Part shown: positions 12,280 to 32,808 of the stretch, in pieces
How positions within the stretch are numbered: the first letter of the stretch is position 1
How the letters are laid out: each line of letters opens with the position of its first letter
Assembly: GCA_963971285.1 (NCBI GenBank)
Contig: OZ020259.1
Location: 9,672,001-9,736,000, forward strand
Direction of reading: 5' to 3'
DNA length: 64,000 bases
Origin: Astropecten irregularis
Lineage: Eukaryota; Echinodermata; Asteroidea; Paxillosida; Astropectinidae
Position numbers and translations under genes: made by a program
The notes under the pieces: model-generated
Told to the model about the DNA's origin: nothing
The model's input: only the letters and a program-made list of their open reading frames with translations
The model's database searches: none

Positions 12280-12284
12280 GGAGC
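12280..12284. repeat. Left target-site duplication of the Polinton (GGAGC)
   Basis: GGAGC lies directly before the left terminal repeat and again at 29185-29189 directly after the right one. Polintons usually make 6-bp duplications; the sixth base differs on both sides (G before, C after), so five bases are what the sequence supports. Confidence 0.65.
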
Positions 12285-12397
12285 AGTAGGGAGAGAATCC
12301 CAATGCTTGCCCAATTGAGCTTTCGATGTTCAAGTCTGGGCTGGGCATAATAAAAAAAATCGGAAAAAATGAAAAAATTAAATAATATTATTTTATA
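12285..12397 (+). repeat. Left terminal inverted repeat of the Polinton (113 bp)
   Basis: It starts AGTAGGGAGAGAATCCC and matches the reverse complement of 29072-29184 over 113 bases without a visible mismatch or gap. The AG start is typical of Polinton ends. The inner 45 bases are AT-rich and reappear, slightly diverged, at about 12409-12458, directly before the first gene. Confidence 0.93.
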
Positions 12398-12458
12398 CTG
12401 GACATGATAAAAAAAATCAGAAAAAAATGAGAAAATTAAATAATATTATTTTATATTA
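12353..12458 (+). repeat. Tandem duplication of the inner TIR sequence
   Basis: The AT-rich inner part of the left TIR (AAAAAAATCGG, then AAATAATATTATTTTATA) is repeated once in tandem with a few changes, ending 11 bases before the first ATG at 12470. The right end has only one copy, which directly precedes the polymerase start at 29055. The second copy thus gives the left gene the same upstream sequence as the polymerase gene. Confidence 0.75.
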
Positions 12459-12469
12459 TTATAAATAAG

Positions 12470-13240
12470 ATGGAACAAAACAAAACAATAAAACATACAT
12501 ACTTTGTAACTGAAAAACATGATCTATATAAAAACGCAGATAAAAGTGAATATAATCATTATGGGTTGTTTAATGAGAAAAATTTAATAATAAATCCAGC
12601 GATTAAAACTTCACAAGAAGTAGTAGAATGTGCTAAATCAAAAATTACTTATAAACATGATGATAAAGAATGTAATTTAATTTTTATGTTACCAACAAAT
12701 TTTTGTTTTGGAATAAATACAATTAATACTTTTGGTGAAGAAAAAAATCCAGACAACACAACTGGCTATCAAATTGTATATAATTTACAAAATGATTGTG
12801 ATGAAATTGTTAAATACTTTGATAAAATGAGATGTACAGTAACTAAATATATTGAATCTGATAAAGATAAAAATATACCAAAAATAACCAGAACTATGTA
12901 TATAAACATGGGAAAACAAAGTGTTAAACCAATTTATGATGATAAAAACAAAAAAATGTATATTAAACTTAAATCATATGGAAAAGGAAATCAATTAAAA
13001 CAATATACAAAATTGTTTGATTCTAAAAAGAAAAAGATTGATAACATCGATGAATATATGAATAAATCATGTAAAGTTACACCTGTTCTCATCTGTAATG
13101 ATATATTTTTTGGTTCTCATGGAAATAGTGGATTTGGTGCAAGTATCAGATTTAAATTAGAACAAGCTTTTATTAGGCAATATGAAACTATACAAATCCC
13201 CACTAATGTCATGTTTGATATTGAAGATATTGATGACTAA
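12470..13240 (+). CDS. Polinton conserved-type protein of unknown function, possible ssDNA-binding protein
   Basis: 256 aa, lysine- and asparagine-rich, no signal peptide or membrane segment. The C-terminal third has a beta-rich pattern (VTPVLICNDIFFG, then GFGASIRFKLEQAFI) that resembles, from memory, a family of presumed single-stranded-DNA-binding proteins in large DNA viruses (DUF5871-like); this is a weak inference. It is the leftmost gene, reads inward from the TIR and starts just behind the duplicated TIR sequence (TATTATAAATAAG|ATG). That is the mirror image of the polymerase gene, which fits a replication role. A terminator-like hairpin follows 72 bases after the stop. Confidence 0.85.
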   Translation: MEQNKTIKHTYFVTEKHDLYKNADKSEYNHYGLFNEKNLIINPAIKTSQEVVECAKSKITYKHDDKECNLIFMLPTNFCFGINTINTFGEEKNPDNTTGYQIVYNLQNDCDEIVKYFDKMRCTVTKYIESDKDKNIPKITRTMYINMGKQSVKPIYDDKNKKMYIKLKSYGKGNQLKQYTKLFDSKKKKIDNIDEYMNKSCKVTPVLICNDIFFGSHGNSGFGASIRFKLEQAFIRQYETIQIPTNVMFDIEDIDD

Positions 13241-13311
13241 ATCTAGAATATAAAAAAGAAAGCCAAAAAAAATAACAAAAAAATTATCATTTTTATTTAC
13301 ACACTAAATTA

Positions 13312-13345
13312 AGCCACATCCAAATTAGGATGTGGCTTTTTTTTT
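13312..13345 (+). terminator. Hairpin plus T-run terminator after the first Polinton gene
   Basis: Perfect 10-bp stem AGCCACATCC (13312-13321), 6-base loop AAATTA, then GGATGTGGCT (13328-13337) followed by nine T. On the minus strand there is no T-run, so it works in one direction, matching the single upstream plus-strand gene. Similar hairpins mark transcript ends in some giant viruses such as Mimivirus (established knowledge). Confidence 0.75.
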
Positions 13346-13730
13346 ACGTCGTATGCATGTACACTACTCATATGCACTTGACAATGCACTAAAGGTTATT
13401 TACCTTAAGTGTATACACAACACTCGCTTGAAAAAAACAGCCATTCAATGTCACGCGTGGTTGTCCCCAGCGTAAACAGGGTTTTTGTTATTCAAATTTC
13501 ATTCATGACTGAACGTAGTGTAAAACGCTTAGTCATCCGCTGACACAAAGGTTAAATTCCTAAAAGCGCTCGGTTTTGTTATTGAAATATAACACATGAC
13601 TGAACCTGTGTAAACCGTCACAATCACAGTCAAACACCCCTCAAAAAATAGACTCGTCCTTTGTGTCGTCATCGTTGTTATTGCACCATTTCGAGTATAA
13701 TATATATCAAATTAAAAAACCATTTTCAGT
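13346..13730. other. Polinton intergenic stretch, no gene
   Basis: It contains two related segments with similar order (TTTGTTATTCAAAT ... ATGACTGAAC ... GTAAA at about 13483-13530 and TTTTGTTATTGAAAT ... ATGACTGAACC at about 13572-13612), suggesting an old duplication of roughly 90 bp. No coding signal is seen. Confidence 0.5.
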
Positions 13731-13806
13731 CGGGGCTGGGAGGATAGCTCAGTGGATAAGCTCGGCGGTTTGCAACCATGGGGTACCGGGTTCGACGCAC
13801 GGTCTG
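13731..13806 (+). ncRNA. tRNA-like sequence inside the Polinton
   Basis: GGATAGCTCAGTGGATAAGC contains a good pol III A-box (TAGCTCAGTGG) and about 40 bases later there is a B-box-like GGGTTCGACGC. The spacing fits a tRNA-derived promoter. The putative anticodon arm GGTTTGCAACC would place TGC (Ala type) in the loop, but acceptor and D stems pair poorly, so a functional tRNA is unlikely. It may be a captured SINE head or a pol III unit. The T-arm region GGGGTACCGGGTTC has an inverted copy at 14059-14072. Confidence 0.55.
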
Positions 13807-13841
13807 TAAAATTGAAATTAACATAACAAAAAATATGAATA

Positions 13842-14042
13842 AAAAATAGAAAAAGAAAAAATGTTTCTCGTTGAATATTTGATGTGGGTATTTAATAAGA
13901 AACATAAAAAACAATATCCTGACATAAAAAAACATGAAAAAAAAATAGAAAAAGAAAGAAAATGTTTCTCGTTGAATATTTGGGGTGATATTTAATAAGA
14001 AACATAAAAAACAATATCCTGACATAAAAAAACATGAAAAAA
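13842..14042. repeat. 101-bp tandem duplication in the Polinton
   Basis: The unit containing ATGTTTCTCGTTGAATATTT, AATAAGAAACATAAAAAACA and ATATCCTGACATAAAAAAAC occurs at about 13843-13940 and again with a period of 101 bases. Minus-strand open frames over it (F/Y/L-rich) are artefacts of the repeat. It lies between the tRNA-like sequence and its inverted partner. Confidence 0.75.
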
Positions 14043-14058
14043 AAAACCTTTAAACTTT

Positions 14059-14102
14059 GAACCCGGTACCCCAAAAAAGGGGGTCAATAGTGTTGTTGAC
14101 CC
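14059..14102. other. Inverted partner of the tRNA-like T-arm plus short hairpins
   Basis: GAACCCGGTACCCC (14059-14072) is the exact reverse complement of GGGGTACCGGGTTC in the tRNA-like sequence about 270 bases upstream, so a transcript could close a large stem around the tandem repeat. Directly after it are ACCCC-A6-GGGGT and GGGTCAA/TTGACCC (14081-14087 with 14096-14102) mini-hairpins. Confidence 0.55.
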
Positions 14103-14239
14103 TCTTTGATGAGTTTAAGGCATAGACCCCGGCCCCTTTACACTCTTTATAAAAACGCCCACGCATTGTGAGTAAAGTATTAGGTGAAAAACAATGATTG
14201 AAAAAAAAAAAAAAAAACATTATTTTTTTTTAAATATAA

Positions 14240-14673
14240 ATGGATGAGATAGATATGTGTAACCATAACATCATTATCGATGAGGCTAAAGATGAGTATT
14301 ATTGCAACAAGTGTGGATTAATTATAGGTTATAGTCTCATGGATTATTCTACGGAAAATATTAATGGAAAGTATAATCAGAGATTTTTCTATAAAAAAAC
14401 AAAGGCTTCTATAGTAAAAAAAGTCTTTGATAAATTAAACATTCAATACCAAATGTGTGACCTTAAACTCGTCGAGTTTAAATTAAAACAAATATTAAAG
14501 GGAAAAATATCTAGGGGTCATCCACTCAGGTCGTTAATGGCAGTATGTTATCTAAAAAAAACATTTTAAACGTAACCCAAGAAACAGTACAAAAGTTATT
14601 TCAAGTAGAATTAAAATATTTTAATCAAGCGTTAAAAAGATACAACGAAACTTTTAAAGAGGAGGAGCCGTAG
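14240..14673 (+). pseudogene. TFIIB-like transcription factor, interrupted by one frameshift
   Basis: The N-terminus is a TFIIB-type zinc ribbon: C7, H9, C22 and C25 (CNH ... CNKCG), followed by GLIIGYSLMDYSTEN, which matches the B-reader pattern GLVVG-(D)RVID of TFIIB. The middle (SRGHPLRSLMAVCYL) resembles the first helices of a cyclin-like repeat. The frame stops at 14569, right after an A8 run (about 14553-14560). The +2-shifted frame stays open to TAG at 14671-14673 and continues in the same style (ILNVTQETVQKLF, YFNQALKRY). The break is therefore a homopolymer slip, real or a sequencing error. Only one cyclin repeat would fit; cellular TFIIB has two. TFIIB-like factors are known in nucleocytoplasmic large DNA viruses, but I do not know them as a standard Polinton gene. 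Confidence 0.8.
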
Positions 14674-14751
14674 GGCTAACTCTCGCTTGACTTTCTTTAT
14701 AACTCGGAGGTTTACTCTCCTCGTTTTTAAACGACTTTGTCAAACTTAAAC

Positions 14752-15423
14752 TTAATTTCCAAGTTTTTTCATAAGCTCTTTTTTTTCTTTGGCGAGTAAA
14801 TCACTCGCCATCGCTTTAGCCTTTTCTTCAACTTGTCGTTCAAATTCAACTTTATTTAAATGTTTAGCTTCTTCTAACTTTGTAGAAGTTTTTAATCTTA
14901 TTTTTTCTTTCAAGTCGTTAAATTTTTTAAGTTCTGACGTAATTAATATAAATTCTTCGTGAGAAATATCACCATCTTCGATGGCTTTTGACACGTATTC
15001 ATCTATCGTGTTTAACTTTGCATCTGCTAAAATTTTAATCTGATCGTGTTTTTTACTCTTTACCGTTAATTTTTTGCTTGCGTATTTAAGTACCGCGTAA
15101 AATCCAAAGGCACCTATGCTAGTCCCCTCTAAGACTAAGCCAATTGGGGCACTAATAACACCCATTAATGCGGGGATCCCTATCGCGGCTGCAGTGACCC
15201 CCAGTACTTCAACCCCGTGCTCTACATATTGAATCGCAGAGATCCACCTTTTTAACTTTTTAAAAGAAACCTCGCGCGAGTTTCTTTCTTTACAGATTAG
15301 AGATTTAATATCTTCAATTTTTTGAAGTCGATAAATTTTAGTTTCGTCTTTAATATCATCACCGCTGTTTAAGTTTAGATCAGGATATAAAGGTTTTATT
15401 TCATTTACATTTACGGTTGCCAT
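14752..15423 (-). CDS. Conserved Polinton membrane protein with helical C-terminal domain
   Basis: 223 aa. Residues about 75-115 form two closely spaced hydrophobic segments (VLGVTAAAIGIPALMGVI; then LVLEGTSIGAFGFYAVL). They are followed by a charged helical region with the pattern KKHDQIKILADAKLNTIDEY and DGDISHEEFILITSEL, which I recognise from uncharacterised proteins of other metazoan Polintons. The C-terminus is Lys/Glu-rich. The start is supported by a CTTATATATTAAA element just upstream (15427-15439). It is the last gene of the minus-strand block and converges with the TFIIB-like gene. Function is unknown; a membrane-remodelling or virion-membrane role is only a guess. Confidence 0.85.
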   Translation of the reverse strand: MATVNVNEIKPLYPDLNLNSGDDIKDETKIYRLQKIEDIKSLICKERNSREVSFKKLKRWISAIQYVEHGVEVLGVTAAAIGIPALMGVISAPIGLVLEGTSIGAFGFYAVLKYASKKLTVKSKKHDQIKILADAKLNTIDEYVSKAIEDGDISHEEFILITSELKKFNDLKEKIRLKTSTKLEEAKHLNKVEFERQVEEKAKAMASDLLAKEKKELMKKLGN

Positions 15424-15426
15424 ATT

Positions 15427-15439
15427 TTTAATATATAAG
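15427..15439 (-). promoter_or_regulatory. CTTATATATTAAA promoter-like element
   Basis: On the minus strand, a TTTAAAAACG run leads into CTTATATATTAAA, 3 bases before the ATG region of the 223-aa gene. It is one of at least seven such sites in this Polinton. Confidence 0.65.
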
Positions 15440-15444
15440 CGTTT

Positions 15445-16635
15445 TTAAATTATTTCACATTCGATTAAAATCCCCGCGCCTTTGTTATTGATGATTTTTC
15501 CTTCCTCGTTTTTAATTGAAAAGGCAAGTTTATTAATTTTACCGTTTTTTAATGTTTTCCCAACGTGAGTTTGGTTTGTTTGGCTTGTGTGATAAAATGA
15601 TAACATATTTGAAGGAAACCCGTTGTAAAAATTATCACTCGTGTTTAACTGCTCGCAATGAATAAACGTAATGTTAAATGGGTTAATATCGTAATCACCC
15701 TTATAAATGACATTTGGGATTAACCTTCCTTTGGGTAAATTGAGCAAATTAGAAACTTCTCGATTTAAACGTAGATTAAGGTTTATATCAGTGACCCTTA
15801 AGGTCACCGTTTTACTTTCTCTATAGACTTTAAAGCTCACACCAGGTATCGCGTTTATCAATGACTCGAACCAATCGATACCATAAAATCCAGGTAAAAT
15901 AATGATGCTTCCTGATTTGCCCTCGGGCAAAGCCGTAACCTCACTCACCGGATGTAGCGCATTTACGATTGGCTCTTTATGTCCTAAAACAACGAGGCTG
16001 TTTTTAATTTGTGGTAAACGCATATTTTCTGTTTTTTCTTGATTGTCATTGTTGTATCCATATCGAAGTAAATCTGCGGCTAATACTTGACCTTCTATGA
16101 TATATTCTATTCTTTTATTTAATAAATGTATTACATAGTTAACTTTATTTTGTAATTCATCATCAAGTCTATCCCTAGATGATTCTAGGGTTCGTTTTCG
16201 TTGTCTTAGGACCTGTATTTCTTCTTGTATTTTTATTTCCACTTCGTTAAGAATTCCAGTATCATATCCATCAAACATCTGTTTAATAATGCGTGTTATG
16301 ATTTCTTCTCGGCTTTGTTGAATTTCTTCGGTTGTCATCGATAAACGAAATTGATTCATTATCTCAGGGGTCAGTTCTAATGGCTTTGTCTGTGGTTGTG
16401 AGCTTTCATCAGTTTGTCTATTGTCTCTAGGCCTACCGTTAGTATAAGCGGGTTGCCCATCTATCTCCTTTTCCCAAGTAATCTCACTGGATTTAGTTAT
16501 GTTAAAATAGCCTACCGTAAACACGAGATTTTTAACGCGAATTTGTTTTGAGCCATCTAAATTATCAATCACCTCTTGCAATTTAAACGTTTGTTCGTTT
16601 TTTGTCAAATAAAATGTGTGTTGTATTCCGCTCAT
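15445..16635 (-). CDS. Putative Polinton minor virion protein
   Basis: 396 aa. The N-terminus (HTFYLTKNEQTFKLQEVIDN) and C-terminus (ITFIHCEQLNTS, then GKINKLAFSIKNEEGKII) follow the layout of a large Polinton virion-type protein: beta-rich ends with an 'IHC'-like strand and a final hydrophobic strand. The middle (about residues 95-200) is Gln/Glu-rich and predicted helical or coiled coil. No catalytic motif and no membrane span. It shares a divergent intergenic region of 39 bases with the 419-aa gene on the other strand. Minor capsid or fibre-like role is inferred from resemblance and position only. Confidence 0.75.
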   Translation of the reverse strand: MSGIQHTFYLTKNEQTFKLQEVIDNLDGSKQIRVKNLVFTVGYFNITKSSEITWEKEIDGQPAYTNGRPRDNRQTDESSQPQTKPLELTPEIMNQFRLSMTTEEIQQSREEIITRIIKQMFDGYDTGILNEVEIKIQEEIQVLRQRKRTLESSRDRLDDELQNKVNYVIHLLNKRIEYIIEGQVLAADLLRYGYNNDNQEKTENMRLPQIKNSLVVLGHKEPIVNALHPVSEVTALPEGKSGSIIILPGFYGIDWFESLINAIPGVSFKVYRESKTVTLRVTDINLNLRLNREVSNLLNLPKGRLIPNVIYKGDYDINPFNITFIHCEQLNTSDNFYNGFPSNMLSFYHTSQTNQTHVGKTLKNGKINKLAFSIKNEEGKIINNKGAGILIECEII

Positions 16636-16662
16636 TCTTACTCTACTTTTATTATAAAAAGA

Positions 16663-16674
16663 CTTATATTATAA
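16663..16674 (+). promoter_or_regulatory. CTTATATTATAA element abutting the ATG
   Basis: The element ends directly at the ATG of the 419-aa gene (16675), leaving almost no 5' leader. It is the plus-strand representative of the motif found before the minus-strand structural genes. Confidence 0.65.
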
Positions 16675-17934
16675 ATGGGAAACTCTTTAGGCGCTTTAGC
16701 TATTATCGTCAATAAAAATAATACTTTTTTTGTACAATTTAAAGATATGTCAACCGCGTATAAATTACCACGTGTTGAAACGGACGAAGCAATCACACGT
16801 TGGCAAACCAACCCTTTGTCTTTTTATCAAAACCAATTCAACTTTGCGATTTATTGTGCCACGACCGCGTGTGGAGTAGGTCTTGACCTCCTCCACAATA
16901 AAAACCAATATATTTCATCGCTGTATCATTTTCACGTGTATTATACTATACGAAAAATATTTTATAATTTGGTAGCACCTATACCTGGTGATGATGTATT
17001 TAACGCGTTAAATAACCGTTATGATACGAGAGCTTTTACGGACACGTGCCGCGTATTTGGCATCGATCGAAGCAAGTCTTTTAAACAAACGAGAGATACG
17101 ACCTCAAACGGCTTGGGTACTGCTTTTTACTACAATTCGGGGTCAGTTCCAGTACCGGGAAAAAACTATGACCCCCACGACTTGGGTGTAAACTACGGTA
17201 CGTATGCAGGCTCAACTTTTATGGGATTTGGTTTAATGGATCCACCAAAAGGATCGGGTCACGCGAGTACCTATACGGTCACTTGGCTTGAACAATCCAA
17301 TAATGTTTTAGGTGCTTGGACAGACTTTATTTCAAAGACGAGTTCTTTTACCGATGTTGGAATTACAAAAATTAACGAATCGATAAGGGCTTACGTGTAC
17401 GCGCTTTTAGGTGCACAAGCACAAACAAAAACCAGTGCATTAACCCCGGGAACCGGTTTAGATGCGCAGCATCAGTTTGTTACCATCGTAGAAAGTCTTA
17501 TTAATAGCGAACCAGATTTAGAGCAAAGTATCAATCAATTTCAAGATTCACTGCAGTATGCTAAAACTCCACTCAACTTTGTCGTAAGACCCGGGCTATA
17601 CCTCATTCCGTCAGATATGGATTTAAGGGTAGGCATACACGATGGTTACAATAATAACTTGCAAATTGCACCTTTAACCGCTAAACCGGGATTTCAACCA
17701 ACCTTAAACGCTCCGATACAAGTTGATGACTTTGATCCTCAGCCAACCCTTGAACCCAAACCCACTCAAGAACCAACAGAAGAACCTACACCACGTTTAT
17801 CACCTATACCTAAAACCTCAGAGTCAAATCCTAAAGCATCTTTAGACATTCATCAAGATGAAAAATTATCTTTAACGATAGGAACAGTTGCAATCATTGC
17901 GATAGGAGTTTTAGTCTACAAAATTTTGACTTAG
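16675..17934 (+). CDS. Conserved Polinton virion-type protein with C-terminal membrane anchor
   Basis: 419 aa. The stretch GAWTDFISKTSSFTDVGITK followed by SIRAYVYALLGAQAQTKTS matches a signature I know from uncharacterised Polinton proteins (aromatic-YALLGAQ motif). Residues about 345-385 are a Pro/Thr/Glu-rich repeat-like linker (PTQEPTEEPTPR). Residues about 399-417 are a single hydrophobic span (LTIGTVAIIAIGVLVYKIL), so the protein is tail-anchored with its bulk on one side of a membrane. There is no signal peptide. A structural or membrane role in particle assembly is inferred. The gene converges on the 450-aa gene, and a bidirectional terminator lies between them. Confidence 0.83.
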   Translation: MGNSLGALAIIVNKNNTFFVQFKDMSTAYKLPRVETDEAITRWQTNPLSFYQNQFNFAIYCATTACGVGLDLLHNKNQYISSLYHFHVYYTIRKIFYNLVAPIPGDDVFNALNNRYDTRAFTDTCRVFGIDRSKSFKQTRDTTSNGLGTAFYYNSGSVPVPGKNYDPHDLGVNYGTYAGSTFMGFGLMDPPKGSGHASTYTVTWLEQSNNVLGAWTDFISKTSSFTDVGITKINESIRAYVYALLGAQAQTKTSALTPGTGLDAQHQFVTIVESLINSEPDLEQSINQFQDSLQYAKTPLNFVVRPGLYLIPSDMDLRVGIHDGYNNNLQIAPLTAKPGFQPTLNAPIQVDDFDPQPTLEPKPTQEPTEEPTPRLSPIPKTSESNPKASLDIHQDEKLSLTIGTVAIIAIGVLVYKILT

Positions 17935-17964
17935 AAAAATATAAATATTTAAACCAAAAAAAAT

Positions 17965-18005
17965 ACCCCCAAGCTCAAAAGAGCTTGGGGGTTATTTTTT
18001 TTTTT
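17965..18005. terminator. Bidirectional hairpin terminator between convergent Polinton genes
   Basis: Perfect 12-bp stem ACCCCCAAGCTC (17965-17976), loop AAAA, GAGCTTGGGGGT (17981-17992). On the plus side a TTATTTTTTTTTTT run follows; on the minus side the stem is followed by TATTTTTTTT. T-runs on both sides fit its place between stop codons at 17934 (plus) and 18028 (minus). Confidence 0.85.
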
Positions 18006-18027
18006 ATTATTTTGTTAAAAAACAAAA

Positions 18028-19380
18028 CTACCAATTATTTTTAATATAAGCAATAATTAAAGCACCTGCACCTATAAATAAAGCCCACACGTGTTCTGCT
18101 AGCCAGCCAACTGATTTACTTAAAACATTTAGTAACCAACTTATGACGCTACCAATGACCCCCGGCAGCGCACCTAATGCGGCTAACCCTAATTTTTTCA
18201 AAGCGTTTGCTAAGTTTTTCAAGTGCTTGTGTACCCACTCTTTGATGCCACCTCCTGATGGTGGCTCAGGTTTAGGTGCGGGTGGTTCTGGGGTTGGGAT
18301 ACCTACACCTCTAACGGCTGCTACCACAGAGCTTACCAGTGTGCTGATGGCCATAGAAATTGCTGCTAAAATACTCGCGATCGTGACACCTTGCTCTTTA
18401 AATAAAAACTTAATTTTTTCTCTAAGCGTTACATCACTGTCTAACATTATATTGATTGTTTCTTTGACGCGATTGATTTGAGATTTTATTTTATCTGATT
18501 CTCTAATGATATTATTAGACCTTTCTCGTATTTCAATGTTTACATTTTCTAACTCTTCTGTGAGTGATCCTATTTGTTCTTCATCTTCTGCTTTTTTTGC
18601 TTCGTTTAATTCTTTTTTAACTCTTTCTTTTGTCTCATTTAACTCAGTTAGCTTTGATTGTTCCAATAATAAATTTGCTTTAAGCGATTGTAATGTTTTG
18701 TCTAAACCACGTAGCTCTCTGATATTAAATTCACTTTGTTCATCAATATTGGTTTCTTGTTCGAGTTCTTCTATAACATTACTCGTTTGATCAGCTGCTT
18801 GTGGTAAATCTTGTAAGGGTATGTTTTCACTTTGAATATCAGTTAAAGATGTACTTGCTTGTTGAAGCGCTGTGCTTGCTTCTTTGCTGCGTTTTGATTT
18901 ATTAAAATCAACAATTCCTAAATCGTTTCGCATAAAACTAGATCTATATTTAATTCCTTTATCTTTTGTTCTAGAATATATTGTACTCACAGAAGCAATT
19001 TTTTTAAAATCATTTTCCAACGTTAATTTTATTTTAATTCCATCTTTTTCGTAATATATTCCATCCTTTTCAAATCTAAAGTTTTCGCGTTGAATTAAAT
19101 CAAAAGTTTTATAACCTTCACTTTTTATGCTAGCATAAAAATTATCAATGTACTGATTTTGAATTTGAAACGCTAGAAAAACATTTTCACCATTACGAAG
19201 AGCTCTTAATTCCTCTTGTTGTTTTTGTGCATCACCACCTCGTAAATTATTTAATCGAGCTTGATTTTCTTCAGTATCGAGTTCAGTATCATCATAAATG
19301 GGGTTGTTAAATTGTTGATCGTCTCTATCTTCTGTTTCATTTAACAGGGGATCATTCTCTTGATAATCAAAATCATCCAT
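18028..19380 (-). CDS. Conserved Polinton coiled-coil membrane protein
   Basis: 450 aa, a recognisable Polinton family. The order is: acidic N-terminus (MDDFDYQENDPLLNETEDRD); a beta-rich segment around residues 70-150; a long heptad-rich coiled coil (about 225-315); the strongly conserved TLREKIKFLFKEQGVTIASI motif running into a first hydrophobic span (about 335-360); a Pro-rich linker (PTPEPPAPKPEPPSGGG); GIKEWVHKHLKNLANALKKL amphipathic helix; and two C-terminal hydrophobic spans to the end. The architecture suggests a membrane-inserted, oligomeric protein. Its job is not known; a role in an internal virion membrane or in entry is speculation. Confidence 0.88.
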   Translation of the reverse strand: MDDFDYQENDPLLNETEDRDDQQFNNPIYDDTELDTEENQARLNNLRGGDAQKQQEELRALRNGENVFLAFQIQNQYIDNFYASIKSEGYKTFDLIQRENFRFEKDGIYYEKDGIKIKLTLENDFKKIASVSTIYSRTKDKGIKYRSSFMRNDLGIVDFNKSKRSKEASTALQQASTSLTDIQSENIPLQDLPQAADQTSNVIEELEQETNIDEQSEFNIRELRGLDKTLQSLKANLLLEQSKLTELNETKERVKKELNEAKKAEDEEQIGSLTEELENVNIEIRERSNNIIRESDKIKSQINRVKETINIMLDSDVTLREKIKFLFKEQGVTIASILAAISMAISTLVSSVVAAVRGVGIPTPEPPAPKPEPPSGGGIKEWVHKHLKNLANALKKLGLAALGALPGVIGSVISWLLNVLSKSVGWLAEHVWALFIGAGALIIAYIKNNW

Positions 19381-19406
19381 CTTTAATTATTTATTATATA
19401 CACATT

Positions 19407-19661
19407 TTAAACTGTAGGTTTATTTATAATACTACCCGGTAAGATTCCCTGTGTGACTAGCCACTGTTGCGTTGCTAAAGAACCTCCGACTAATGCGGTT
19501 AGTTTAGCCGCATCTTCTACGCTAAGCCTATCTAAATCAGGTGATTTAATTTTGAGTAATTTTTTACTTACCATTGAGTATCCCATGGTTAAAAGGCTTA
19601 ACACTGCACCATGATAAACTGTGTTTGCTATTCCGTTTATATCAATATTTGTATTTGCCAT
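19407..19661 (-). CDS. Small conserved Polinton membrane protein
   Basis: 84 aa with a hydrophobic stretch after residue 15 (VYHGAVLSLLTMGYSMVSKK) and a second near residues 50-70 (AAKLTALVGGSLATQQWLV), ending in QGILPGSIINKP. This layout (span, KK-L motif, short helix, 'QGIIP' end) is shared by small Polinton proteins of unknown function. A CTTATATAGTAA element precedes the start (19664-19675). Confidence 0.82.
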   Translation of the reverse strand: MANTNIDINGIANTVYHGAVLSLLTMGYSMVSKKLLKIKSPDLDRLSVEDAAKLTALVGGSLATQQWLVTQGILPGSIINKPTV

Positions 19662-19663
19662 TC

Positions 19664-19675
19664 TTACTATATAAG
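19664..19675 (-). promoter_or_regulatory. CTTATATAGTAA promoter-like element
   Basis: On the minus strand it is preceded by AATTTTAAAAA and lies 2 bases from the ATG of the 84-aa gene, in the same arrangement as at the other structural genes. Confidence 0.65.
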
Positions 19676-19690
19676 TTTTTAAAATTTAAA

Positions 19691-19801
19691 TTAGTTCCCC
19701 TTTTTTAAAGATTGATAAAAGGGAAAGCCAATGGTGACTGCTGCTATTAAAACACAAATATAAACTGCGGCGGCAATATCATTTACGGTTGTTTCATCCA
19801 T
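19691..19801 (-). CDS. 36-residue membrane miniprotein of the Polinton
   Basis: A short open frame beginning MDETTVNDIAAAVYICVLIA and ending in SLKKGN: one hydrophobic span (about residues 10-29) with an acidic outside and a basic end. It is too short for ordinary ORF lists. It fills the gap between two larger genes exactly and has its own TATATATTAAAAATG element directly upstream (19802-19815), so it is very probably expressed. Confidence 0.75.
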   Translation of the reverse strand: MDETTVNDIAAAVYICVLIAAVTIGFPFYQSLKKGN

Positions 19802-19826
19802 TTTTAATATATAAACATTTAAAAAA

Positions 19827-20234
19827 TCAATCCATTAAAAGTTCTTCGGGTTGACTCTGTGGTAGACTTGGTTTTGTTATTTGAATAGGTTTATAGTTTT
19901 CTGGTGATTTGTTTAATGATTTATACAATAAAAAACCTATACCGCCTACTAAAATTAAACCGCCAACATAAAGTAATCTCGAATCAGGGGTATTTTGAAT
20001 AATCTCCGACTCTGTCTCTTCTGTTTTTATTTTAGCTAATTGCTCTTTCATTTTTTTATTATGTTCTGCCAGGCGTTTACCTTGTTCAACGCGTTTAGCG
20101 TTTTTAGGTTTTACGGTTTGTTTTTTAGTTACTTGCGCCACTGGGGTTGTTGGTATCGGTGTTGGTGCTGCTGGTGCTGTTGTTGGGGGTGCTGTTGGTA
20201 AAGCTTGCTCCTTCTCCTGATGCATAGTTGTCAT
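19827..20234 (-). CDS. Conserved Polinton single-span protein with Pro/Thr-rich N-terminus
   Basis: 135 aa. The N-terminal 35 residues are Pro/Ala/Thr-rich. Then comes a basic region with the recognisable KRVEQGKRLAEHNKKMKEQL pattern known from Polinton proteins, and one membrane span (about residues 88-106, LLYVGGLILVGGIGFLLYK), then a short tail. Its first 110 bases overlap the end of the 205-aa gene in another frame. The CTTATATAATAAA element lies inside that upstream gene's 3' coding part. Start chosen at the first ATG after the element; a second ATG is three codons later. Confidence 0.82.
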   Translation of the reverse strand: MTTMHQEKEQALPTAPPTTAPAAPTPIPTTPVAQVTKKQTVKPKNAKRVEQGKRLAEHNKKMKEQLAKIKTEETESEIIQNTPDSRLLYVGGLILVGGIGFLLYKSLNKSPENYKPIQITKPSLPQSQPEELLMD

Positions 20235-20742
20235 TTGAATTATTTATTATATAAGTATTTTTATTTGTTGTGGATTTGTTAAAGTTTAAATGTTTTGTGG
20301 TAATAAGTGTTGCTATCAAAGGTGATAGATAGACACCATATTTGTAACAAACCTCACTAAGTGCATAAGCTAAGCTATTACTAATGATAGGATCGTTATT
20401 TAAATCATTGGTTAAATTTTCCTCAGAATTTAAGCTAATTCTAATTCCTAAAATATCAGCCGGAGTTGCTAAACCTATAGCTCGTGCATACAAACTCAAA
20501 ATTGAGTTACCCACTGTAGCTACCACTTCTTTACCGAATTTAACTTGATACCGGTTAAATAATTTTTCTTGATCTGCAGGTGTTAGTGCTTCTATGTCTT
20601 TGATGGTGTATTCTTTTCCTAAATATTTTTTTGAATCACCTGCTGCAACTATGCCACAAAGTCGATCTTTATAACTACTGTCGTTTGTTGGTGTTGAAGG
20701 TGTATTTACATCGCTATTTATAATTGTTGTCAAGTCGTTCAT
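20125..20742 (-). CDS. Conserved Polinton protein of unknown function
   Basis: 205 aa from MNDLTTIINSD. An upstream ATG at 20853 would add 37 residues, but that part runs into a tandem repeat and past the TATATAGTAAAATG element that abuts the start chosen here. The middle follows a pattern I know from Polintons: LFNRYQVKFGKEVVATVGNS, LYARAIGL, NDPIISNSLAYALSEVCYK, YGVYLSPLIATLITTKH. It is predicted all-helical. The C-terminal 45 residues are low-complexity Asn/Ser/Thr and coincide with the overlapping start of the 135-aa gene, so the disordered tail may exist only to accommodate the overlap. Confidence 0.82.
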   Translation of the reverse strand: MNDLTTIINSDVNTPSTPTNDSSYKDRLCGIVAAGDSKKYLGKEYTIKDIEALTPADQEKLFNRYQVKFGKEVVATVGNSILSLYARAIGLATPADILGIRISLNSEENLTNDLNNDPIISNSLAYALSEVCYKYGVYLSPLIATLITTKHLNFNKSTTNKNTYIINNSNDNYASGEGASFTNSTPNNSTSSTNTDTNNPSGASN

Positions 20743-20756
20743 TTTACTATATAACA
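20743..20756 (-). promoter_or_regulatory. TTATATAGTAAA element at the start of the 205-aa gene
   Basis: On the minus strand GTTGTTATATAGTAAA runs straight into ATG. It supports the shorter start for this gene. Confidence 0.6.
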
Positions 20757-20815
20757 ACTTATAAATTTTGTTAAAGCAAAATAAATTATAACATAAGTAG
20801 CTTAAGTTTAAAGTA

Positions 20816-21071
20816 ATAACAAACTTAATAATAACATCAACGTATTGTAGCATTGGTGTTTTTTATTTATAACAAAATTAAAAATTGCTATAAATAACTT
20901 GATAGGTAGTTATTAGCAAATTTTTAACAAAATACAACAAATGATAACAAACTTAATAATAACATCAACGTATTATAGCATTGGTGTTTTTTATTTATAA
21001 CAAAATTAAAAATTGCTATAAATAACTTGATAGGTAGTTATTAGCAAATTTTTAACAAAATACAACAAATG
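20816..21071. repeat. Tandem duplication, two 128-bp units
   Basis: Units at 20816-20943 and 20944-21071 are identical except for one base (CGTATTGTAG versus CGTATTATAG). The block is non-coding, AT-rich, and separates the ATPase gene from the 205-aa gene. It contains short internal palindromic words (TAACTTGATAGGTAGTTA). Near-identity indicates a recent duplication; a regulatory or origin-like role is possible but unproven. Confidence 0.85.
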
Positions 21072-21089
21072 ATAACAAAAATTAGGTTG

Positions 21090-21695
21090 TTAATCAAAAA
21101 CTTGATATGAAACTGGAGGTTCTGTGTTAATAACCAATTTACTATATTTTTTATCGCACAAATGTTTTTTAATTACGTCTCTTTTTTGATCACACACAAC
21201 ATCATTTTCATCTAATGCAATATCAAAACTCGTTTTATCTTTTGTATAAAACATCGCAACCCAACTTGTATTCTCACGATAGTCTTTTAAAACCGAATTA
21301 TACTTTTGTGTTAATAACCAACAGCTATGGTTATAATGCCTCCCAGAGAAAGCGATTTTGCTCAACGCACATGTTTTTTTTCGATATTTTATTTCCTGCT
21401 GACTCGAACAATCATCTATGATAAATAATGTTTTTATTCCATCTAAAATATTTTGATACAAATCTAGGGCTTCATTTAAAGTTATTTTTTCAAAGTCTAA
21501 ATCACACAAATATACATTTTCATCCATTGATATCCAAAGCCTCGATAAATAAGTTTTATTTTTAAATAAGGTCGGGCAAATGACCACGATCGATTCAAAT
21601 TTATCACGATATTCGGTTTCCAATAAATCTAAAATCCATTTAGTCTTTCCCGAGTTTGTTTTTCCTACAATTAAAGCACAATGACAAGATTCCAT
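21090..21695 (-). CDS. Genome-packaging ATPase (FtsK/HerA, A32-like)
   Basis: 201 aa P-loop ATPase that would pump DNA into the capsid. Walker A is GKTNSGKT at residues 11-18. Walker B is TLFIIDD with the acidic pair D94-D95. A sensor-like glutamine lies at Q130 in WLLTQKY, preceded by the SGRHYNHS segment typical of this family. Length matches Polinton and adenovirus-like packaging ATPases. It directly follows the capsid gene (17 bases between stop and start codons), so the two read as one late module. Confidence 0.94.
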   Translation of the reverse strand: MESCHCALIVGKTNSGKTKWILDLLETEYRDKFESIVVICPTLFKNKTYLSRLWISMDENVYLCDLDFEKITLNEALDLYQNILDGIKTLFIIDDCSSQQEIKYRKKTCALSKIAFSGRHYNHSCWLLTQKYNSVLKDYRENTSWVAMFYTKDKTSFDIALDENDVVCDQKRDVIKKHLCDKKYSKLVINTEPPVSYQVFD

Positions 21696-21711
21696 TTATT
21701 TTAATAAGCTT

Positions 21712-22974
21712 TTAAAAAACTAAATTCTTAAAATTTCCATCCTCAATGGTTAATTGCGCATCCATGACTAAAAATACAAACATCGTTAAATCTCCCGCTG
21801 TTTCAGCCTCTCGAGTCATCTGAATCTGAATTCCTCCTCCGTCGTTTAAACGTCTTCCACTTCCGTGAGCACTATTATCATCAGTTGAGCGAAAATCTAG
21901 CCACAGGCCGTATTTATCTTTATAGTAGTCAGCCATTTCTAGACCCACTAAATTTAAATCTTTTACAATCGATTGACCATTTTCGGTATCGCTATCACCA
22001 AAAAATTTATTAACTTCTTGCCAGTGCTGATACTCAAACATACCTTGCGAAAAAAGTTGATTGGGTTTTCCTTCAACCGTAATGCTGGTTTTGCTAATGT
22101 GAGGGTTGTAAAATCTTTGAGGGTTTTTTACCGTTGGATCTCTAAATAAGATTAAAACGCCTTTGAGACTTTTAATCGGTTGATTAATCATAACGTTCCA
22201 TAAGGTATCTGATTTGTTGATCGATCTTGTTTCTAAATTATGTACGTGATCAAAAAGATAGTATTTCATTCGTTTGTTTTTTAGCTCTTGTGTCAAATCT
22301 CGGTTAGTGACAACTTCGTATTCAAGCGTTAAATCTGAAATTGAATATTGGGCACTTGTATCCGCGCTATTAACGACTTTATCGTGATCGTTAAATGTTA
22401 ATTCATACGTTAGGGGTTGCTTTAGACTGCTAGGATAAAAAGGATGATGTGCCGTTAAAAGCTCAATATCTAAAGGAATACAATATCGATTACCAAACGC
22501 GTCAGCGATAGCTTTATCTTTTCCGCTATTATTTTCAGCATTAGCATCTGCCGTGCCTAATCTTAATTTTGTGACGTTTTCTTTTTCAAGGCCTACATAA
22601 GCCATATTTCGTGTAATGTAGGGGTGCAGCCAGTTATCTTTAAAATTGTGAAAGACATCCGCATCGCGATAACTCACGATTGTGTTACCTTGAAGCCTAA
22701 CATTGATTTCGCGTATTAAGTTACGACATAAGTTGTTAAACACCGTTCGATTACCATCTGTCCCTCCCTCTAACTCGAGTTTAAAAGCGAGTTTAGAAGT
22801 ACCGGGTACGATAACATCGTCGGGTCCTAATTGCGGAAACTTAACGATGAGTTTTTGACCAGCCGCAATCGTGCTTGGATTATGAGTGATTGACACTTCT
22901 CTTCGTTCGCCTTTAATGGCTTTAGGGATTTTAAGACGCCTCATTGGGTTTAGTTTTTTACCGTAATGATTCAT
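21712..22974 (-). CDS. Major capsid protein (double jelly-roll, hexon-like)
   Basis: 420 aa. The segment PQRFYNPHISKTSITVEGKP followed by NQLFSQGM and a WQEVNKFF helix is the recognisable core of Polinton/adintovirus major capsid proteins. The protein is beta-rich throughout with hydrophobic strands at both ends (final FVFLVMDAQLTIEDG). It would form the pseudo-hexameric capsomers of an icosahedral particle. No membrane span. The start MNHYGKKLNPMRRLKIP is basic and in the position expected. A CTTATATATTAAAAA element lies 20 bases upstream, in a short region shared with the divergent 140-aa gene. Confidence 0.9.
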   Translation of the reverse strand: MNHYGKKLNPMRRLKIPKAIKGERREVSITHNPSTIAAGQKLIVKFPQLGPDDVIVPGTSKLAFKLELEGGTDGNRTVFNNLCRNLIREINVRLQGNTIVSYRDADVFHNFKDNWLHPYITRNMAYVGLEKENVTKLRLGTADANAENNSGKDKAIADAFGNRYCIPLDIELLTAHHPFYPSSLKQPLTYELTFNDHDKVVNSADTSAQYSISDLTLEYEVVTNRDLTQELKNKRMKYYLFDHVHNLETRSINKSDTLWNVMINQPIKSLKGVLILFRDPTVKNPQRFYNPHISKTSITVEGKPNQLFSQGMFEYQHWQEVNKFFGDSDTENGQSIVKDLNLVGLEMADYYKDKYGLWLDFRSTDDNSAHGSGRRLNDGGGIQIQMTREAETAGDLTMFVFLVMDAQLTIEDGNFKNLVF

Positions 22975-22990
22975 AGTTCAAAATAGTGTG

Positions 22991-23005
22991 TTTTTAATAT
23001 ATAAG
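22991..23005 (-). promoter_or_regulatory. CTTATATATTAAAAA element before the capsid gene
   Basis: On the minus strand AATTTAAAAACC leads into CTTATATATTAAAAA. The same 57-bp gap holds an AGTATAAATTAAAAG|ATG context for the divergent plus-strand gene. Confidence 0.65.
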
Positions 23006-23031
23006 GTTTTTAAATTAGTATAAATTAAAAG

Positions 23032-23454
23032 ATGGCAGGAATAGCAATGATGGTTGGCGGGGCAGTAGTAAATGCGTTAGCGTTTACCGGTAGTAACTTT
23101 TTATTTAGCAGTTTATCAAAACAACAAATTGACAAAGAACGAAAAAGACACGACTTAGCATTAGAAAAATTAGCGCGAGCCAAAGAAGATTGGGAACAAC
23201 AACGCGTTAAATATCTCGATTATTTGAATAAACGTATGGTACAACAAAAATTATCAGAAAAAACGTTTAGTAACGTAAACGAAGCGCTTAGAGTGTACAG
23301 CGAAATAACGGGTGAAAATTACGATTTAGAATTACCACCTAAACCAAAACTTAGTGACTTTTATACTCCGAGTGATGATCAACAAATTAGAGAACTCGTG
23401 TGGGTATTAGGTGGTACAGCCGCAGTGGGATTCTTCATTTATAGATATGTATAA
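23032..23454 (+). CDS. Conserved Polinton small membrane-associated protein
   Basis: 140 aa. The N-terminal hydrophobic segment (AMMVGGAVVNALAFTGSNFL) is followed by a charged helix with the familiar RHDLALEKLARAKEDWEQQR pattern. Then come KPKLSDFYTPSDD, which corresponds to the 'LSDFYEPS' motif of Polinton proteins, and a C-terminal span (VWVLGGTAAVGFFIYRYV). Its last codons lie 8 bases upstream of the integrase start. Function unknown. Confidence 0.85.
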   Translation: MAGIAMMVGGAVVNALAFTGSNFLFSSLSKQQIDKERKRHDLALEKLARAKEDWEQQRVKYLDYLNKRMVQQKLSEKTFSNVNEALRVYSEITGENYDLELPPKPKLSDFYTPSDDQQIRELVWVLGGTAAVGFFIYRYV

Positions 23455-23461
23455 AATAAAA

Positions 23462-24505
23462 ATGAGTGAGTTAAATAAAAAACAAAGAGAACAGCTTTCA
23501 GGTTTGTTTTACAGTCCTAAAGGTTATTGGAAAGGTGAGGGTGCTGTCACGCATTTGCATAAAAAAACGGGGGTTGATAAACAAAAAGTTAGATCTTGGT
23601 TAAAAAAACAAGCCGTTTGGCAAATTTATTTACCACCTCCCTCATATGTACCCAGGCCGACGGCAATGTCGAGTGATTGGTTAGAACCAAATTACGTACA
23701 TCAGTTAGATATATTATACTTACCCTGGGATCTAGTTAAACAAAAAACGTTTAAATACGCGTTGACGGTCATAGACGTGGCGAGTCGGTATAAAGAGGCT
23801 GAACCCATAACTTCTAAAGTTGCCGGTCAAGTGAAAGACGCGATTATTAAAATTTACAAGCGTTCGTCTTTAACGTGGCCTAAATTAGCACAAATCGATG
23901 CTGGAACAGAATTTAAAGGAGATTTTAAAAAGTTGTTTCAGTCTCATGGCGTAGAGATCAGTGTAGGTGTGCCGGGTGTGCATCGATCGCAAGGAGTGGT
24001 CGAAAGATTTAACCGAACCTTAGCCGAAAGATTATTCGGTCATCAATACGTGCAAGAAATGCTTGATCCGCAGGCGAGAAACGTTGAATGGGTGGTGAGG
24101 TTGCCCCAGGTTATAAAATCCCTCAATGAAGAAACAACACGATTGATTCGAGATTCAAAAGATAAAGAAATCACTCCTACGCAAGCGATCAAGTTAAAAC
24201 GGGTTAAACAATTACCCTCATCACCACAAAAAACAAACGTTAGTGATCTTCCGACTAATGTTTTAGTTCGTTATTTATATCAACCAGGGGAACAAGAAGG
24301 AGGTACGGTGAGGAGGGCTACCGATCCCATATGGAGCGTTAACATGTATCAAATTGAAAAAAGAACGAGTCAATTTAAAATCATGAGTGGTAAAAAAGTT
24401 ACTACAGGTCCTACGCTTTATTACTTAAAAGACGGACCCAAACGATCGTTTGTGAAAGAAGAACTTCAAATCGTTTCAGATGACACCGAATTGCCAGAAT
24501 CTTGA
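23462..24505 (+). CDS. Polinton integrase (retroviral-type rve, DDE)
   Basis: 347 aa enzyme that inserts the linear element DNA into the host chromosome. Catalytic triad D83 (HQLDILYL), D146 (QIDAGTEF) and E181 (GVVERFNRTL), giving D-x62-D-x34-E, close to the canonical D,D-35-E. An N-terminal helix-turn-helix-like region (THLHKKTGVDKQKVRSWL) replaces a retroviral zinc finger. The C-terminal 80 residues (after about 270) are beta-rich, as in chromo/SH3-like integrase tails. An earlier in-frame ATG overlaps the preceding gene; 23462 is chosen because it leaves no overlap and has TATAAAATAAAA just upstream. The 3' end overlaps the polymerase gene convergently by 40 bases. Confidence 0.94.
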   Translation: MSELNKKQREQLSGLFYSPKGYWKGEGAVTHLHKKTGVDKQKVRSWLKKQAVWQIYLPPPSYVPRPTAMSSDWLEPNYVHQLDILYLPWDLVKQKTFKYALTVIDVASRYKEAEPITSKVAGQVKDAIIKIYKRSSLTWPKLAQIDAGTEFKGDFKKLFQSHGVEISVGVPGVHRSQGVVERFNRTLAERLFGHQYVQEMLDPQARNVEWVVRLPQVIKSLNEETTRLIRDSKDKEITPTQAIKLKRVKQLPSSPQKTNVSDLPTNVLVRYLYQPGEQEGGTVRRATDPIWSVNMYQIEKRTSQFKIMSGKKVTTGPTLYYLKDGPKRSFVKEELQIVSDDTELPES

Positions 24506-27500
24506 TATTTAATTTTTTTATTGCCAAATGCTAAAGTATTGATTCCATCGAATAAAATATATCTTTTTCCATCATAAGGACTCAATGAAGTTTTGGTTTT
24601 CACTTGCGTATAAATTTGATGTTTGTTAGATTGAATTATATTCATTTGATGTTCTTGAGATTTTTTATTTTGTAAACAATTATAAAAATTTTCAAAGTTA
24701 ATATTTTTTTCAGTCACGGTTTTTGTTATACCTTTAATTTTTTTAACCTCTTTATCATCTTGTATTAAGATCACATACATTTTTGATCTTAAACAAATGG
24801 CTTGTTTTACTACTTGGCCACCGTATTCATCTTTCATTTTTCCAATTACTTTTTTGTTTTTAGGGTCAAATAAAGGGTGAGTGGGTGAATAATTAGATAG
24901 ATCGTAAAGTTCTGAGTCTCGTTTAATATCCTCGTAAACATCGTCGGTTTTAACGATCAATAATAAACTATCGGTATCGGTATACATGAGATTTATGTTA
25001 TCGTTATATTTTTTCTTCAAGTGATTGTAATAAAAGTCGTACATAAAAGATTTGCTTAAATCTAATATACTCACTCCACAATAGATGGGTTTATTTAAAT
25101 ACGTTTTTTCTTTGTACCTTTCAAAGAAACCTATATTAGAATCTGTAAATTTAGTTGATGTTTTATAATTAGATTTGGATGCTAGTTTTAATATTTTTTT
25201 TATCGATAAATCGCTATCATCGTCTATAATAATATTTCCATCTATTCTATTTCGAACATTTTCCATTGTTTTACCAAAAACGGAATTGTTCATGAGTTTA
25301 AAAAAATCTTTTTCAAAATCTGATTTGGCTATTTTTCTGAGTTGTGTATTTTTATCGATGTAAGACCGCATCCACGGTTTTTGCTTAAATCGTAAAACAC
25401 GATGTACGCGTGTGAGTTTTAATCCTAGTTGTAAATACAGTTTTAACGTTTTATAATGAATGACATATTTTTTACGAGGTCCTAAATGAGCGATGAGTCT
25501 GTCATCTCGCGAAGCTTTTTCTCCGCTAGATAACAATTCTTTTTGATAAGGGCTCAACCATTCAGCCGATACGGTTATGTTCTCTGGGGCTAAGGGTAAG
25601 TCGTTGTGTAAGTCGTGAAGCTCTTTAGGATAGTCTAGATCTACTTCCAACATAAATCCGTAGTCGTTGTCATCGGCTAAACCTAAAATATGATCGACCG
25701 TAAAGTTAGCGACTTGGTAATCGGTTAACCATTTAAAATCGGCGTAGGGTAACGATTGACTCATTGCCCAACCGTATAAATTGTTCGCATCTAAATAAAG
25801 TAAATAAGAAGATTCTTTTTCAGGATCGTAATCTTTTAAATATTTATTGTTGGCTTTGTGATGCCTACAACTACCCACGCTAGAATAACCACCTCTTTTA
25901 CCTTTTTCAAAAAATAAATATTGTTCGATATCGGTTAAAAGTTCTAATTCTATTTTAGAATGCAGCAACAAGGCATCCCAAGACAATCCCGGTGCCGTGA
26001 GATATTTCGCTGGATCTAAACGATATGTTTTCTTACAAGTGGTTCTGAAGTTTTGAAACACATCGGCGAGTAATAACGTATCCGTGGTCACGTATAAGTC
26101 GTGATAATCACCTAGAGTTTTACAGTTGAAAGTTTTCCAAACCAACTCCGCGTGAGTATATTCTTCTCGCGTAATACCTTTGAGTTTTATCTTACTATAA
26201 AACTTTTCAATGGGTGGTAATTGAGTTTCTTTAAATCTATCAAAGGAATCCATATATTCGTATGGATAACACCCCTTTTTTAATAAAAGATCAACATCAT
26301 CCGTATTATAATCTTTAAAATGTTTTCTAAATAAATGAAATGCGTCTTTAGGGCAAGCAGCGACTAATTTTTCTAAGGAAGAGTTCATAAAATTTAACGA
26401 ATCTATAAAACGGAGTTGACCTATACTAATACTTATGTATTTTTCCGAGTTTTGAGGAATACAAAATATATTATCGAATACGTTTTTTTCCTTTTGATAA
26501 TAATTTAATATACTTAAAACCTCTTTTAGTTTATCGATTTTAACATTTATTTTTTCATCGATTATTTTTAGTTTTTGATTAATTAGTTTTATTTTTTCTC
26601 TATTACAACGTTCGCTTTTGTTTGCTTTTTGGTTAATTTTTATATTAAGTTTCTTATCGAATGTAATTCCGTATTTTTCTTCAAACGTTTTTATTTTTGA
26701 ATTATCACCTTTTCTTATATTTCGACGAAACTCGTTAAAAATTTCACGTTTTTCTTTTATGTATCTAATTTTTTTGCGGAGTTTTATTTCTTGCGTTTCG
26801 AGTTTTTCTTTATACGCTTCGATTTTTTCTATACGCGTTTTGATTTTTTCTATACACGTTTCACGTTTTTTTATTTTATTATTTAACGTTTCGACGCAAG
26901 CGCTTACCCCCTGCATGATCAAATGACCGTCGTAATTTTTAAAATTGTGAAAAATAACCGGTATTTGTGTTCGATTTGTTATTTTAAGTTTTAGGTTACA
27001 ATGTGCATGTGCAACTCCTCTAAATTTACCCGTGATGTGGCAGTGATCTCTAACTTTTCTAAATTTATTAATTTTTTTACCGCATTCTAAACACAAAAAA
27101 TCTGTATAACCTTTACTGTTTGTGACCGCGTTTTCTTCTTTTTCGGATTTGGTTTTGGGTTCACGAGGTATCTCACAATTACAATATAAAACGCTAGTTT
27201 GATATATTTCCTTTTCACAAATCCAACACTCGTTACTCATCATTAATGATTCGTCGATCTCTTCAATCGGTATAGGATTATTAAATATTTGTTTAATTTT
27301 ACGTTGTTCTTTTAACAATGAATTAATTAAATGCTCGCTAGCGTTACACCCTCTATAGGTTTTTTGCTTCATTAGTTTTCCATCAAATCTTACCACAACA
27401 TAAGAATAACCGCTGGGTTTATGAACGCTCAACTTTTGAGTTTTTTTCATCTTTTCTACATTGTATTTTTCTAAAATACATTCAAAATCCGCGTAAATCA

Positions 27501-29055: not shown

Positions 29056-29071
29056 TATCCTTTTATTATAA

Positions 29072-29184
29072 TATAAAATAATATTATTTAATTTTTTCAT
29101 TTTTTCCGATTTTTTTTATTATGCCCAGCCCAGACTTGAACATCGAAAGCTCAATTGGGCAAGCATTGGGATTCTCTCCCTACT
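29072..29184 (-). repeat. Right terminal inverted repeat of the Polinton (113 bp)
   Basis: Exact inverse of 12285-12397. Its inner AT-rich end lies 17 bases from the polymerase ATG, so polymerase transcription probably starts in or next to the repeat. Confidence 0.93.
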
Positions 29185-29189
29185 GGAGC
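29185..29189. repeat. Right target-site duplication of the Polinton (GGAGC)
   Basis: Direct copy of 12280-12284. The following sequence belongs to a MITE copy, so the target was repetitive DNA. Confidence 0.65.
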
Positions 29190-32390: not shown

Positions 32391-32808
32391 ATGTATCCAT
32401 TCTCCTTGTTCCTCTGCTTCGTGTTGATATGTCCATGTACAGCTCAGTTTTATTCCAGTGATGAAATTCGTCGGTTTTCGAGAGATGTGGACTCTGGATC
32501 GAGCGGAATGCGAAGGTCGGCATATAGCCCCGACGACACACAAGAAATCCAAGAAGAAATTCTGAATCTGCTTGGTTTGAAACGGAGACCACGACCCGAA
32601 GCTGTGAAAGGATCCCATAATCACTCGGCGCCATTGTTTATGATGGATCTGTACCGATCGCTTAATACCAAGGAATTTGAAGACGACGATTTGGATTTGT
32701 ATTTGCTGTCTGATGATGTAGTTCCATGGATGCCTGGTACAGCATTTAACTACACACTCAATGAAGTATCTGCGCTTAACAAAGCCGATACTATCATGAG
32801 TCTGCCAG
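32391..32808 (+). CDS. BMP5/6/7/8-like ligand, coding exon 1
   Basis: 139 codons plus one base, donor CCAG|GTAATA. It starts with a signal peptide (MYPFSLFLCFVLICPCTAQ), then the TGF-beta propeptide: EEILNLLGLKRRPRP, SAPLFMMDLYRSL and ALNKADTIMSLP, all typical of the BMP5-8 subgroup. The secreted dimeric ligand would act through type I/II serine-kinase receptors and Smads, patterning tissue along body axes. The ATG is fixed by the signal peptide. Exon ends in phase 1 and joins in frame to the exon at 57790, about 25 kb away. No prohormone cleavage site or cystine knot is in the window. Confidence 0.92.

Follow-up and report, generated by a model that had tools for sequence, protein, structure and literature searches.

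A TFIIB-like gene carried by a Polinton-type element in the genome of Astropecten irregularis

Why should a virus-like transposon carry a gene resembling the general transcription factor TFIIB? This question is raised by a 64,000-nucleotide stretch of the genome of Astropecten irregularis (contig OZ020259.1, positions 9,672,001 to 9,736,000; hereafter the window), in which a Polinton-type element carries a short gene with a TFIIB-like zinc ribbon. Polintons are usually described with genes for replication, integration and capsid, and transcription is left to the host. The initial annotation, made from the letters of the window alone, proposed a TFIIB ribbon followed by a cyclin-like segment broken by a frameshift, and suggested that this Polinton lineage directs its own transcription. 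Our analysis supports a TFIIB-like protein, with the ribbon recognized by sequence and one cyclin fold by prediction. The gene is a regular part of the element lineage and is kept by purifying selection. It is plausible that the lineage directs its own transcription.

Both open frames of the gene lie where they had been annotated (Table 1), and the proposed ribbon residues C7, H9, C22 and C25 are all present. The best Pfam match of the first frame was the TFIIB ribbon Zn_Ribbon_TF (PF08271, E 2.4e-5, 24.2 bits, under its gathering cut-off of 29), and the NCBIfam archaeal TFB model matched with E 0.005 (15.9 bits, cut-off 384). The ribbon part scored above reversed controls in hhalign. The second pair of zinc ligands is C22/C25, while the first is C-x-H in the window copy, CDHC in the relative P0001 and C-x2-C in P0002 and P0003. 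P0001 (145 amino acids) is 68% identical to the first frame over 97%, and its residues 108-145 match the second frame at 30 of 38 positions (79%, E 5e-21). Because P0001 aligns to each frame in succession, the two frames were once one gene. Relatives P0001-P0015 scored E 1.4e-9 or better and P0016 only E 0.22. By eye, P0016 shares an N-terminal segment with P0002, and P0002, P0009, P0015 and P0016 have about 85 extra residues before the ribbon, which are absent in the window gene and P0001. IMG/VR yielded zero relatives with TFIIB-like queries, phage records gave no match by tblastn, and PDB gave no TFIIB match by sequence. The second Pfam match of the first frame, the A2L zinc ribbon (PF08792, E 3.7e-4, 20.5 bits, cut-off 22.9), would suit an A2L/VLTF3-like late transcription factor instead of TFIIB, and the A2L ribbon was also the second match in five of seven proteins from sister copies and the third in one. 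However, the TFIIB ribbon outscored A2L in the window ORF (open reading frame) and in all seven sister proteins, P0001 had no A2L match, and no VLTF3 domain was found in profile scans that included the window ORF and the sister proteins. An A2L/VLTF3 identity is thus very unlikely.

As the initial annotation had advised, uninterrupted versions were sought elsewhere in the host genome assembly (475.7 Mb). There were 123 matches to the gene, and 107 of them have an open frame of at least 143 amino acids with no internal stop (hand count); the window copy is one of the 16 without it. We read 27 sister loci, seven with 1.5-kb flanks and 20 of 5.8 kb, and in all of them the flanking DNA was that of the same element, with about 92-99.6% identity except for one stretch of 85%. 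The annotation had also considered that the ORF might be absent from sister copies, as a host TFIIB fragment captured by chance in this one copy would be. Nothing favored such a capture, and it is refuted by the 107 open copies, by the element DNA around every sister locus and by the relatives in other sources.

Ends were fetched for ten sister copies. Five of them gave both termini, which were the same as those of the window element (L157-L160, L165/L166 and L171-L174), and each was bordered by a perfect 5-bp duplication of its own (AGAGG, CACAC, GGTTG, CCTTT and AAAGC), so these copies are separate insertions. Incomplete ends were found at L155/L156 (a shortened left match) and L163/L164 (with a left end alone); in a further three copies the left side gave a partial match of 34 bases and the right side nothing. 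The 143-amino-acid coding sequence was obtained from 24 of 28 loci, 20 of the 24 being distinct. Its pooled ratio of nonsynonymous to synonymous changes (dN/dS) was 0.25, or 0.40 on distinct changes only, in simple Nei-Gojobori counts that allow neither for relatedness nor for post-insertion drift. Together with the element DNA around all 27 loci, these ratios make the gene a regular and selected part of the element lineage. When the whole genome was searched with the ribbon, the best matches were three host genes (34-42 bits), followed by the copies of this family (20-25 bits). From their ribbons we take the host genes (L147-L149) to be Brf1, TFIIB and Brf2. Three older-looking copies of the gene (C15:16536520, C18:6776790 and C1:7428645) show 61-66% identity and six or seven stops each, which suggests more than one wave of insertion.

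The frameshift that the initial annotation had placed at a run of eight A is supported by the alignment of both frames to consecutive parts of P0001, and it is peculiar to a few copies. Because of this break, ordinary reading of the window copy stops after the ribbon and roughly half of the second domain. As the other large ORFs are open and the two ends of the element do not differ, the break either arose recently or reflects a sequencing error. We also considered programmed frameshifting at the A8 run and do not favor it: the in-frame A7 heptamer occurs once more within the same ORF and at eight places in six other ORFs, the fold of the downstream RNA is poorer than that of most shuffled versions (z +1.08), 173 out of 200 being equal to it or better, and sister copies are open without any frameshift.

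The second domain is predicted to be a cyclin domain of the TFIIB type. In a second AlphaFold model the C-terminal half formed one TFIIB-type cyclin fold, and TFIIB-family chains stood at the top of both structure lists obtained with it; among the first 21 Foldseek titles, six name TFIIB, TFB or Brf2 outright, and for matches within polymerase-complex structures we assumed the customary chain identities. The best viral structure matches were TFIIB homologues of nucleocytoplasmic large DNA viruses; of 11 rows in the viral list that bear the name TFIIB or TFIIB-cyclin, 7 have at least 290 amino acids. Several results weigh against this fold. Profile searches, those of the sister proteins among them, gave no cyclin match, the cyclin part scored below its reversed control in hhalign, and the second model is of low confidence. 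In the first model the cyclin fold was poorly shown and TFIIB-family chains did not lead the structure lists; its VIA list lacked TFIIB, which is uninformative taken alone. Thus, the cyclin-like segment of the initial annotation is borne out by a predicted fold and not by sequence profiles. The missing profile match, the hhalign score and the low model confidence, as well as the readiness of zinc ribbons to cross-match, would also fit a protein made of a zinc ribbon and helices that takes no part in initiation and is like TFIIB in a general way. Against this, TFIIB came first in nearly all ribbon comparisons and the structure lists are led by TFIIB-family chains, and we regard so general a resemblance as quite unlikely. 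The two cyclin repeats of the TFIIB family are not both found here. Since intact copies have 143 amino acids, with room for one cyclin, the protein is TFIIB-like and not TFIIB.

The assignment of the surrounding element to the Polinton type, already made in the initial annotation, is supported by its inverted repeats, rve integrase, A32-type ATPase and polymerase-like ORF (Table 1), and at all 27 sister loci the gene lies in DNA of this same element. The inverted arms (12284-12397 and 29072-29185) are 114 nt long and 100% complementary, including one flank base each, which leaves identical ends of 113 bp. These ends begin with AG(T), as do the terminal inverted repeats of Polinton/Maverick elements. 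The target duplication of the window copy is GGAGC (12280-12284 and 29185-29189). Polinton/Maverick elements are expected to duplicate 6 bp, whereas 5 bp was found here and in all five sister copies with both termini. The 1544-residue polymerase-like ORF matched Endonuclease_7 with E 2.3e-4 and neither a PolB profile nor a PDB sequence; we take its NNSVFG and YTDTDS to be PolB-type motifs. Profile scans of the 420-residue capsid candidate gave no significant match, and neither a C5 protease nor a double-jelly-roll capsid was detected in Pfam scans of the ORFs or in a PHROG scan of seven ORFs. IMG/VR scans with the capsid candidate, polymerase, integrase and ATPase as queries yielded zero relatives. 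Because C5 protease, capsid and PolB profile matches are lacking and the duplication is 5 bp, 'Polinton-type' is the safe label.

Some repeats were also seen inside the element. A 128-bp tandem duplication (20811-21066, 98% identical) lies upstream of ORF g9. Between g1 and the TFIIB-like gene, a stretch common to sister copies (13740-14075) looks tRNA-like and of the short interspersed nuclear element type by eye, though ARAGORN made no call; two copies of about 125 bp, 92% alike, lie at 13821-13945 and 13922-14045, and 14 bases of the stretch (ggggtaccgggttc) reappear inverted near 14060.

The initial annotation also named a recurrent promoter element and hairpin terminators. CTTATAT occurs 12-31 nt upstream of 5 of the 14 genes, all between 14752 and 22974, and five of its seven sites in the element fall within 50 nt upstream of genes; the flanks (47.1 kb) contain six sites. 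The mean in 500 shuffles was 0.19 genes, but the word was picked after inspection and its significance varies with the control: with a free choice of 7-mer, 237 of 300 shuffles reached five genes, whereas only 1 of 300 did so with words restricted to those containing G or C. The site of g3 was kept in all 27 sister loci and that of g5 in 18 of the 20 loci reaching g5, in copies that are closely related. The word is absent from g1, the TFIIB-like gene and the integrase (INT) and polymerase (POL) genes, but this absence does not reach significance (Fisher 0.22; with a looser word, 0.085), nor does a split of early and late genes by it. Terminator-like sites numbered 16 against 8.5 +/- 2.8 in shuffles. 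Two strong hairpins stand at gene ends (Table 1), and the TFIIB-like gene is followed by a weak site with a stem of 5 pairs. In an animal, sigma-70-like sites carry no information.

What, then, may the protein do? We think it probable that the intact protein, with its B-ribbon and one cyclin fold, is a minimal TFIIB-like initiation factor which steers host RNA polymerase II to promoters of the element. The ribbon would dock on the host enzyme as the B-ribbon of TFIIB does, the cyclin domain may touch TBP or promoter DNA, and the polymerase would thereby be guided to AT-rich promoters of the CTTATAT class. The host enzyme is the likely partner because no RNA polymerase was found among the element ORFs given Pfam scans, and the likeliest role is recruitment of this enzyme to promoters that belong to the element. 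Chief among the alternatives is a decoy: the ribbon would bind host RNA polymerase II, and the protein, having no second cyclin, would obstruct host TFIIB and depress transcription of the host instead of starting that of the element. The TFIIB ribbon match and the single cyclin-size domain of the intact 143-145-residue proteins would suit it. However, the second domain is strongly kept too, with GKISRG, RSL and AVCYL invariant in alignment A2, where two rows lack part of the ribbon so that conservation of the two domains cannot be fairly compared; moreover, a promoter-like word recurs in the element. A decoy therefore seems unlikely to us. Returning to the initiation factor, a more specific version is only tentatively offered: the pared-down TFIIB might replace host TFIIB on dedicated CTTATAT promoters and give a late-gene programme to a 17-kb element without a recognized RNA polymerase. 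The gene might also be left over from the origin of viral TFIIBs.

Table 1. Positions of the TFIIB-like gene and of other features of the element in the window.
Feature	Position	Strand	Remarks
TFIIB-like gene, first frame	14240..14569	+	109 amino acids; zinc ribbon, linker, start of cyclin-like domain
A8 run	14554..14561	+	open frame shifts here
TFIIB-like gene, second frame	14515..14673	+	remainder of cyclin-like domain; relevant from about the A8 run
Polinton-type element	12285..29184	none	16.9 kb; inverted repeats AGTAGGG...CCCTACT
ORF g1	12470..13240	+	256 amino acids, no assigned function; upstream of TFIIB-like gene, same strand
Hairpin downstream of g1	13311..13338	none	11 pairs, T tract
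ORF g3	14752..15423	-	convergent to TFIIB-like gene; CTTATAT 16 nt before ATG
Hairpin between convergent g5 and g6	17965..17992	none	12 pairs, T tracts on both strands
A32-type packaging ATPase	21090..21695	-	PF04665, E 2.8e-10, 40.5 bits (cut-off 22.8)
Capsid candidate	21712..22974	-	420 amino acids; candidate by size and place only; CTTATAT upstream
rve integrase	23411..24505	+	PF00665, E 2.1e-8, 34.8 bits (cut-off 32.6)
Polymerase-like ORF	24466..29100	-	1544 amino acids; PolB-type motifs, endonuclease VII-like region

Outside the element, the Pfam scan found a TGF-beta propeptide ORF at 32391-32855 (E 2.5e-16), in keeping with an animal host. On the minus strand at 48328-51508, ORFs for a reverse transcriptase (E 1.2e-16), a tyrosine-recombinase-like protein (below cut-off) and a GDSL hydrolase together presumably represent a DIRS/Ngaro-type retroelement. 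A tRNA-Thr (ggt) is predicted at 63511-63583.

Finally, the family can be set beside known systems. With TFIIB, archaeal TFB and Brf it shares the N-terminal zinc ribbon and a predicted adjoining cyclin-type fold, but it has one cyclin instead of two, only 143 amino acids, no cyclin profile match, a first ligand pair that reads C-x-H in the window copy, and lower ribbon scores than the host genes. TFIIBs of nucleocytoplasmic large DNA viruses (marseillevirus, iridovirus and African swine fever virus) are alike in being virus-encoded and in giving the best viral structure matches. Such viruses usually encode an RNA polymerase, whereas the scanned ORFs of this element gave no match to one. Passages of one paper describe the TFIIB homologue of African swine fever virus, which encodes an RNA polymerase, as having a short reader/linker and as thought to serve late genes (PMC10881513). 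For the alga virus CpV-BQ1, parts of another speak of two encoded TFIIBs and one TBP by which host RNA polymerase II is redirected (PMC12085832). As far as those parts describe it, the role proposed is the same as here, in a larger algal virus and not an animal Polinton. A TBP mimic such as vTBP has a fold other than TFIIB. The gammaherpesvirus vTBP, ORF24 of Kaposi's sarcoma-associated herpesvirus (KSHV), is described in sections of its source as a general-factor mimic through which host RNA polymerase II reaches late promoters of the TATT type (PMC7498053); it is a parallel in working only, from another virus. Vertebrate Mavericks, in the portions of the survey used here, have a mean size of 16.9 kb, the common end AGTAGT, an integrase, an ATPase and a polymerase (PMC8097293). 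Our element agrees with those portions in size, in these three genes and, with AGTAGG, broadly in its end, and differs in gene order and in that a protease was not detected. The words 'TFIIB' and 'transcription' are absent from the main text of that paper, and a TFIIB in a Polinton was not found in the literature searched, a partial search that leaves room for earlier notice. TFIIB is well known in giant viruses, and a TFIIB-like gene in a Polinton-type element is apparently the new part. It may serve as a minimal TFIIB of natural origin with which to learn what TFIIB cannot do without, and it bears on whether viral transcription genes predate giant viruses. If our interpretation is true, a general-factor mimic open in more than 100 copies would show that reprogramming of initiation, for which herpesviruses use vTBP, extends even to small virus-like transposons.
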